A stretch of DNA of 64,000 nucleotides from Candidatus Kuenenia hertensis (lineage in GTDB: Bacteria > Planctomycetota > Brocadiia > Brocadiales > Brocadiaceae). Positions 11,514-14,457 of this stretch are shown piece by piece; position 1 is the stretch's first letter; every line of letters starts with the position of its first letter. Below the pieces are notes generated by a model. That model ran no database searches, was not told the DNA's origin, and worked only from the letters and a program-made list of their open reading frames with translations. A program made the position numbers and the translations under genes. The stretch covers positions 62,001-126,000 of the forward strand of contig SOET01000004.1 in assembly GCA_021646465.1 (NCBI GenBank), read 5' to 3'.

Positions 11514-12761
11514 TTGTCTCATATTTGTATTTTTGAAGATATCCACTATTCACGTCTCTCTCCCCTCGTATATACCAGGGCAACGTTTGAACTGCGTTGC
11601 GGCCTGTACACTCCGCTGGAGAGGGCATCCAAACTCTATCCCGGTGCAATAATTACCCTTTTCTGCCGGGACTATCTTACTGATGTTTTGAAAGAACGCT
11701 ACAATCTGGAGGTAAATGCACCACGCAAACCTGAGAATAGTTGCCTTTTTATTAACGGCCGCGCAATCCTTTCTCATCCTGTTCCCCCGGAAGGCCCGGA
11801 GGAAATTGGCATACAGGGAGACACGGTTATTTACCTTCGTCTCAAAAAAAACACGGCAGGAAAAATATCGTTTGAGAAATTTCCGGAAGAAAACAACATT
11901 GAGAAATTGAAAAATTTGTTTCCCAGGGTTGATATCCGTGTTCCGGTGCTCCATTATTTTTGGGACATTATAAAACATAATGCATCACAAATAACGGAAG
12001 ATTTCTCTTTATTTGTCAGAGAGGGGCGGAACGCTGGGAAAGATTACGAAGGCGCGTATCTCATCAATAAAGATAAAATATACATTGGGAAAGACAGCAG
12101 GGTCAAACCCTGCTGCGTAATAGACGCTGAAAACGGGCCGGTATACATAGGCAATAACGTCACCATTTCCCCGAATACCACTGTTGAGGGGCCCGTTTAC
12201 ATTGGAGACAATTCAGTAGTGCAGCCCAACTCCAGACTACGGAGGGGTACCAATATCGGAGAAGTGTGCAAGATCGGGGGAGAAAACGTAAATACAATAT
12301 TCCACAGCTACACCAATAAACAGCATGACGGATTTCTGGGCGATTCCTACATCGGCTCATGGGTCAACATCGGGGCGGATACGACGAATAGTAATTTGCT
12401 GAATACCTATGATAGCATAAAAGTTCAAATGGGCAACGAACTCATAAATACAAACAACACTTTCCTGGGCATGGCAATGGGAGACCACACGAAAACCGCT
12501 ATAAATACGAAGATTATGACGGGGAGTATCTTTGGTTTTGGCTGTAATATTGTTACCAATCTCTATCCTCCGAAATATCTTCCTTCGTTTTCATGGTGTT
12601 CTGACCACGGAGTAATAGCTTACACTTTGGAAAAGGTATTACGCGTGGCAAAAATTGCCATGGGAAGACGGGAGAAAGAAATGTCCCCCAGCGAAGAAGA
12701 GCTTTTTAAAAAGATATTTGATCTTACCAAAGAGGAAAGAACTATATGCAAAAAGACGTAA
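11514..12761 (+). CDS. GlmU-like sugar nucleotidyltransferase with hexapeptide repeats
   Basis: The 415-residue protein has an N-terminal sugar-1-phosphate nucleotidyltransferase-like region ([21 protein letters not shown], about residues 1-190). A left-handed beta-helix of hexapeptide repeats (about 210-370) contains [20 protein letters not shown] and [19 protein letters not shown]. This matches the uncharacterised bacterial family annotated as putative sugar nucleotidyltransferase, in which the N-terminal part is divergent from true GlmU. It probably makes or modifies an activated acyl-amino sugar for the envelope. The TTG start has a weak AAGGG site at suitable spacing. Its last 16 bases overlap the HARP gene, so the two are translationally coupled. 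Confidence 0.78.
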
Positions 12762-13351
12762 AACGTGAACAAATCATCCAGGAAAAAATAATTATCGACA
12801 CCAGTATCTTTACTAATCCGGACGTGTACCAGACCTTTGGTAAAGACCCTACGGACGCTTTGCGCTCTTTTCTGGAAATTATCAGCAAATTGGAAGGGCC
12901 TTCCTTTTACATGCCGCAGACGATTTACGAGGAACTTTTGACGTTTGTAGAGATAAAAGATATTCATATCGATTTGCAAATGCTGATACACCAGAAACCT
13001 CCAAAGCGTTACGAATTGACCGTGCCCGCGTTTTTACTCTACGAACTTATCGAAGACGTACGGCAAAGGATCGATAAGGGATTGCGGGTAGCGGAAACCG
13101 CCGTAAGGGAAGCCTCCCCCAATACCGAACCCGAAGCCATTGCGAACCTCAGGAAAAAATACCGCATGGCGCTGCGAGAGGGAATCATCGACAGCAAAGA
13201 AGACGTAGATTTAATCCTCCTTGCGAAAGAAATGGAAGGCATCCTGATGACCGCCGACACCGGCATCGTCAAATGGGCAGACAAACTAGGCATCCGCTAC
13301 ATCGACCCCAGGTTGTTGCGGGGTATTTTGGATAAACTGGCGGCTTCGTAA
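12746..13351 (+). CDS. HARP-type protein-only RNase P (PIN-like; 'RNA ligase partner' family)
   Basis: The 201-residue protein matches the family formerly annotated 'RNA ligase partner', which includes Aquifex Aq_880, the minimal protein-only RNase P (HARP). The PIN-like metallonuclease acidic residues are visible: Asp18 in [14 protein letters not shown], then Asp149, Asp153 and Asp155 in [16 protein letters not shown], and Asp171 in [13 protein letters not shown]. The inserted helical domain pattern KGLRVAE and [16 protein letters not shown] is also shared with Aq_880. HARP removes 5' leaders from pre-tRNAs. The start overlaps the upstream gene by 16 bases with a GAGGAAAG site. Whether it is the only RNase P in this cell is not visible; many HARP-bearing organisms also have the ribozyme form. 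Confidence 0.85.
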
Positions 13352-13509: not shown

Positions 13510-14457
13510 ATGGAACAATGTCCTATTTGTCTAAATAAATGTAAATCAAACATGTGGACAGGAGATAGAATATATTTATACAACATAGATTGTCCGCAAT
13601 GTGGAAACTATACGACAAACACAAAAATTGAAATGTTAATCGGCAGAAGGAACCTAACGGAGCGACAAAAGGCAAACATATCGGCTTGGCTAGCGGAAAA
13701 TGAGGGATATGAAATAACTTCAGAGAACCTCGATAATTTTCTAATCAAATTAAAACCACCGTCATTTATTGATAGAGCAGATAATCTGCTTCGCCATATC
13801 GCCTTTAAATCTGATTTCGCCGGTGCCTCAATTCAATTCGATAAATCATTTATAAGCAGGGCTTGGTGTGTAAACGAAAAAGAACTGCAGGCCATAACTG
13901 ATTACTTAATTACAACAAAAAGAATGGCTGTTTCCATAGAACCGGAAATAAGATTAAATAAGTATAAAGTACTTCCTGATGGTTGGATACGATTGGAAGA
14001 ATTGTCAAAAAGTAATCCCAAAAGCTCTCAAGGGTTTGTTGCAATGTCATTCTCTAACAATGAGGAAATGCATTTGGTGGGAAAAGCAATTACAGCTGCT
14101 ATAGGAGATGCTGGATATAAACCTCTCATGGTGAATAAGATTGAACATGTTAACAAAATTTGTGATGAAATTATCTATCAAATAAGAAGAAGTAAGTTTG
14201 TTGTAGTCGATTTTACTGAACAGAAGCCCAACGTTTATTTTGAAGCGGGTTTTGCAAAAGGGTTGGGGTTAGAAGTGTTTTGGCTTTGTAAAAAAGAGGA
14301 CATTGATAAACTTCATTTTGACATTCGTCAGTATAATTGTATCGAGTGGATTTCTGAGAAAAATGAGATTTATTGTCCTGATGATAAGAAATTGTTGCAA
14401 GAACGTCTTACTCAAAGAATAGTGAGTATGCTTGGCAAAGGTCCAGAAAAGAGCTAA
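13510..14457 (+). CDS. Zinc-finger protein with deoxyribosyltransferase-like domain
   Basis: The 315-residue protein has a Cys4 zinc-ribbon at the N-terminus (Cys4, Cys7, Cys28, Cys31). A linker of about 130 residues contains helices that may bind nucleic acid or partners. From residue about 175 the protein matches the nucleoside 2-deoxyribosyltransferase-like superfamily, with QGFVAMSFSNNEE, then DFTEQKPNVYFEAGFAKGLG carrying the conserved Asp and the likely catalytic Glu245, and HFDIRQYNCIEW. Members of this superfamily cleave or transfer N-glycosidic bonds; several are proposed effectors in bacterial conflict systems. The gene stands alone at the edge of the accessory region, next to decayed toxin modules. 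A defence role is inferred only. Confidence 0.65.
   Translation: MEQCPICLNKCKSNMWTGDRIYLYNIDCPQCGNYTTNTKIEMLIGRRNLTERQKANISAWLAENEGYEITSENLDNFLIKLKPPSFIDRADNLLRHIAFKSDFAGASIQFDKSFISRAWCVNEKELQAITDYLITTKRMAVSIEPEIRLNKYKVLPDGWIRLEELSKSNPKSSQGFVAMSFSNNEEMHLVGKAITAAIGDAGYKPLMVNKIEHVNKICDEIIYQIRRSKFVVVDFTEQKPNVYFEAGFAKGLGLEVFWLCKKEDIDKLHFDIRQYNCIEWISEKNEIYCPDDKKLLQERLTQRIVSMLGKGPEKS

Follow-up and report, generated by a model that had tools for sequence, protein, structure and literature searches.

A minimal protein-only RNase P (HARP) encoded in addition to a complete ribozyme RNase P in an anammox bacterium, and its association with the Rnl3 RNA ligase in Brocadiales

The HARP locus

The window, by which we mean the whole stretch of 64,000 nucleotides that was analysed, carries a gene for a minimal protein-only RNase P (HARP) directly behind a gene for a sugar nucleotidyltransferase. 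The features of the locus and the codons of the residues discussed below, assigned by alignment, are the following.

11514..12761, + strand: alt-GlmU-type UDP-GlcNAc diphosphorylase / acetyltransferase (TIGR03991; 359.5 bits, cut-off 225)
12746..13351, + strand: HARP, minimal protein-only RNase P (PIN_5 / RNA ligase partner protein), 201 aa (PF08745, TIGR03875, PDB 7e8k)
12797..12799, + strand: codon of Asp18, the first catalytic Asp (Aq_880 D7)
13151..13165, + strand: codons 136-140, including Arg136 and Arg140 of the spike helices (Aq_880 R125, R129)
13190..13210, + strand: codons 149-155, including Asp149, Asp153 and Asp155 (Aq_880 D138, D142, D144)
13256..13258, + strand: codon of Asp171 (Aq_880 D160, PbHARP D173)

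An earlier reading of the letters alone (the sequence-only reading) had placed the HARP open reading frame correctly, starting with ATG, and its family assignment has been confirmed. The protein matches the Pfam PIN_5 profile PF08745 over residues 15-198 (E=2.1e-60) and, with 204 bits where the cut-off is 95, TIGR03875 (RNA ligase partner protein). Seven PDB sequences match it, each of them an RNA-free ribonuclease P, with 7e8k/7e8o in first place (E=4e-82). HARP stands for homolog of Aquifex RNase P. The same reading had listed Asp18, Asp149, Asp153, Asp155 and Asp171 as the catalytic pattern, to be checked against Aq_880, the HARP of Aquifex aeolicus (PDB 7f3e; 47% identity). In our alignment these residues are in register with Aq_880 D7, D138, D142, D144 and D160, so that all the metal-binding Asp residues correspond and the assignment stands; Aq_880 R125 and R129, without which pre-tRNA cleavage is weak or absent (PMC8266387), are kept as well. 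The five Asp residues also align with D20, D151, D155, D157 and D173 of PbHARP, and together with E63, R136 and R140 they are invariant in 83 homologs. Comparison with the congener locus L034 (93% protein identity) gave a dN of 0.033 and a dS of 0.638 (dN/dS about 0.05), which demonstrates strong purifying selection on the gene.

The window protein itself is an ordinary HARP, from an order in which HARP has already been studied. PbHARP of 'Planctomycetes bacterium GWF2_40_8' (PDB 7e8k, 7e8o) is 70% identical to it over 181 aa and resembles it in length class, in catalytic and tRNA-binding residues and in belonging to the order Brocadiales (Scalindua clade), although it comes from a different family. 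PbHARP has been crystallised with pre-tRNA and cleaves it (PMC9051087), weakly, at about 6% in 20 min. It is 100% identical over 197 aligned aa to the protein of locus L065, which falls inside the Scalindua clade in our tree, so that a crystal structure with pre-tRNA and a weak activity were already on record for a HARP of the anammox order. Reviews also count the Planctomycetes among the HARP phyla and state that most such bacteria have rnpA and rnpB too (PMC10941002). The novelty that had been suggested for HARP in anammox-type bacteria is thus lost. Cleavage of pre-tRNA by the window HARP is probable rather than certain, given that four recombinant bacterial HARPs did not process pre-tRNA, as cited in PMC12153264.

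Coexistence with the ribozyme RNase P

The window belongs to a genome of 4.17 Mb in 89 contigs. Hydrazine synthase alpha (PF18582) is encoded there with a match of 91 bits, while 14 control genomes gave none, and the host is therefore an anammox bacterium. It belongs to the order Brocadiales, in line with the planctomycete of anammox type that the sequence-only reading had presumed. The named relatives of the window HARP belong to Brocadia, Jettenia, Loosdrechtia and Scalindua.

Whether HARP replaces or duplicates the ribozyme had been left to a search of the full genome. This search found rnpB as a class-A RNA of full length (288.7 bits, covering model positions 1-367) and rnpA (100 bits), whereas HARP as the sole RNase P, of the Aquificaceae type, would call for the absence of both. 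These results do not support HARP as a replacement of the ribozyme; at the gene level it duplicates it. In this the host differs from Aquifex, where according to the literature Aq_880 is the sole RNase P and the ribozyme form is lacking.

HARP was clearly present in 45 of 62 Brocadiales genomes. Among these 45, rnpB exceeded the cut-off in 39 and rnpA was found in 39, and one genome (58% complete) had neither. Five HARP-positive genomes (G390, G402, G370, G374, G408) had no rnpB over the cut-off and were searched again with laxer filters. Four of them have rnpA and the remaining genome is 58% complete, which makes gaps in the assemblies the more likely reason, and loss of the ribozyme is unsupported. 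As a separate observation, G370, G374 and G408 (Scalinduaceae, 92-95% complete) have HARP and rnpA with rnpB undetected even with the laxer filters, probably by reason of assembly gaps or divergence. Two further families of the order, f2 and f4, gave no HARP; their sampled genomes have rnpB.

In a tree constructed without archaeal sequences, all Brocadiales HARPs formed one fully supported group apart from those of Nitrospirota, within which the Scalindua and Brocadiaceae sequences were largely separate. Such a topology would fit a single acquisition followed by vertical descent. A search of viral contigs, which reaches close relatives only, gave no HARP match.

Association with the Rnl3 RNA ligase

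The database label 'RNA ligase partner', mentioned in the sequence-only reading, proved apt. The RNA ligase Rnl3 (TIGR01209) is encoded in the same genome as the window HARP, on another contig (G000:C49:42867-43964; 337 bits, cut-off 136.9), and it adjoins HARP in most relatives. Rnl3 was over the cut-off in 42 of the 45 HARP genomes of the order and in one of the 17 without HARP, there at a contig edge; the genomes share ancestry and these counts are therefore not independent events. The two genes lie tail-to-tail in most Brocadiaceae, most Scalindua and many Nitrospirota. In most Brocadiaceae the stops of the convergent Rnl3 and HARP genes are 12-327 bp apart, and in most Scalindua the two open reading frames overlap by 15 bp. 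The locus of L065 is of the latter kind and has no GlmU neighbour, whereas the window HARP follows alt-GlmU and its Rnl3 is elsewhere.

This separation is a property of the genus of the window, where HARP and Rnl3 are apart in three of three genomes, by 1.2 Mb in G088, a congener assembled as a single contig. Rnl3 in this genus still adjoins a divergent gene for a TrkA-like protein of 490 aa and then a lipoprotein-like gene, the same neighbours that it has in G239, a genome with an undivided pair (L158, L160 and L162 compared with L167). The break therefore fell most likely between HARP and Rnl3. Both genes have outlasted the rearrangement that separated them in this genus.

In some Scalinduaceae, Rnl3 beside an intact HARP was found in broken frames, truncated or missing. 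It is missing in G407, truncated in G408 and spread over three frames in G316, the last possibly an assembly error. The loci and genomes concerned are the following.

L066/L171, 6394-7530: broken or truncated Rnl3
L061, 6550-6819: broken or truncated Rnl3
G408:C51:17576-17851: truncated Rnl3
G407: Rnl3 missing

Because Rnl3 is missing, truncated or broken in three Scalinduaceae with intact HARP, it can decay without HARP, and HARP does not strictly need it.

The linkage has been described before (Seshadri and Gopalan 2025, PMC12153264), with co-occurrence and mostly convergent adjacency of HARP and the TIGR01209 ligase, as in the anammox genomes. That article presents mainly extremophile hosts, and its main text, as far as available, does not mention anammox bacteria; here, nearly all Brocadiaceae carry both genes and the genus of the window has them apart.

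The alt-GlmU neighbour

The overlap of 16 bp between the alt-GlmU stop and the HARP start, noted from the sequence alone, is real and recurs at the congener locus L034. Adjacency of alt-GlmU and HARP was found throughout the Brocadiaceae loci examined, where the genes overlap by as much as 38 bp or lie up to about 120 bp apart, and a GlmU neighbour at none of the Scalindua or Nitrospirota HARP loci examined. The arrangement thus looks like lineage context: it was read correctly, and adjacency confined to Brocadiaceae is weak evidence for a functional coupling.

Role of HARP in anammox bacteria

We consider it highly probable that the window protein is an ordinary, intact HARP, additional to the ribozyme RNase P and acting as an accessory or back-up nuclease. 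As an ordinary HARP, this PIN-domain metallonuclease with a spike-helix arm would be expressed and would assemble into dimers or higher oligomers, in which the arm of one protomer would hold the tRNA elbow while the two-metal site of another, with four Asp and one Glu, would cleave the 5' leader from pre-tRNA-like substrates. Housekeeping tRNA processing would most likely fall to the complete ribozyme, and it is from working beside it that an accessory or back-up role is suggested for HARP, probably linked to the co-inherited Rnl3.

One could suppose instead that tRNA 5' ends are processed mainly by HARP here and that the ribozyme is residual or specialised, and both the strong conservation of HARP in the order and the five genomes without rnpB over the cut-off would agree with this. 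It is nevertheless very unlikely in view of the intact rnpB and rnpA in the window's genome, the rnpA genes or incompleteness of those five assemblies, the weak activity of PbHARP and the normal growth of archaeal HARP knockouts, as given in PMC12153264 and PMC10941002. Equally slight is the probability of a functional link between HARP and the synthesis of cell-wall precursors by way of alt-GlmU. Their adjacency or overlap throughout the Brocadiaceae loci examined speaks for this, as does the result that no gene of the genome reaches the cut-off for canonical GlmU, but the neighbour is missing at the Scalindua and Nitrospirota loci examined, the spacing varies up to gaps of more than 100 bp, and co-transcription alone would explain the arrangement. 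The membership of HARP in a VapC-like group of PIN proteins, reported in PMC10941002 and PMC12153264, could further point to a VapBC-type toxin-antitoxin pair with a neighbour. We regard this as extremely improbable, because no small antitoxin gene adjoins the window HARP, the full set of HARP spike-helix residues is present, the protein has been inherited as one clade and is nearly fixed in the family, and a PADLOC search for a defence association gave no match for it.

A doubtful but more substantial alternative is that the real substrate is some other structured RNA, cut by HARP and then circularised or repaired by Rnl3, with pre-tRNA cleavage as a side activity. This has been proposed for archaea (PMC12153264), and would account for the co-occurrence of HARP and Rnl3, for their tail-to-tail pairing in most Brocadiaceae, most Scalindua and many Nitrospirota and for the persistence of both genes after the pair was split in the window's genus. 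Against it stands the loss or breakage of Rnl3 in some Scalinduaceae with intact HARP. The substrate proposed for archaea, C/D box RNAs, is moreover not known to exist in bacteria.

What is new with the accessory reading is an answer at the gene level, namely that HARP coexists with the ribozyme in the window's genome, and the near fixation of HARP with Rnl3 in Brocadiaceae and Scalinduaceae, the pair being split in the genus of the window. Both forms of RNase P are found almost throughout these two families, together with the partner ligase, making anammox bacteria a clean case for the question of why the ribozyme is supplemented by a protein RNase P in some bacteria. A published summary describes HARP hosts as mainly extremophiles (PMC12153264). 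Judging by the organisms named, most anammox HARP hosts would not come from extreme habitats, and so the published bias does not fit a group of mostly non-extremophiles in which HARP and Rnl3 are nearly fixed. With this distribution, habitat stress is hard to maintain as the shared reason for keeping both forms. Perhaps, and we put this forward quite tentatively as rather unlikely, a near-fixed, co-inherited cleavage and ligation pair beside a complete ribozyme in mesophilic anammox bacteria reflects a dedicated non-tRNA role, in which some bacterial RNA would be cut and circularised or repaired and which neither extreme habitats nor archaeal C/D box RNAs would explain.

Other observations at the HARP loci

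In the HARPs of the genus Brocadia (loci L048-L054 and L057), the loop that joins the two spike helices is longer by about 36-40 inserted residues. It lies in the arm that is thought to bind the tRNA elbow, and the catalytic residues of these proteins are intact. In some Brocadia genomes (L051, L053, L004, L006) the gene upstream of HARP gives an alt-GlmU match that is fragmented or limited to the N-terminus, which suggests divergence, assembly errors or decay. The gene that follows HARP in the window (13510-14457, + strand) encodes 315 aa. The protein begins with a zinc-finger-like stretch, and its C-terminal part is TIR-like, with a match to a PADLOC TIR effector profile (E=1.3e-9). The gene was not seen at the HARP locus of G088 and has a 73% counterpart in the congener G228; its position is the one that Rnl3 occupies in relatives.
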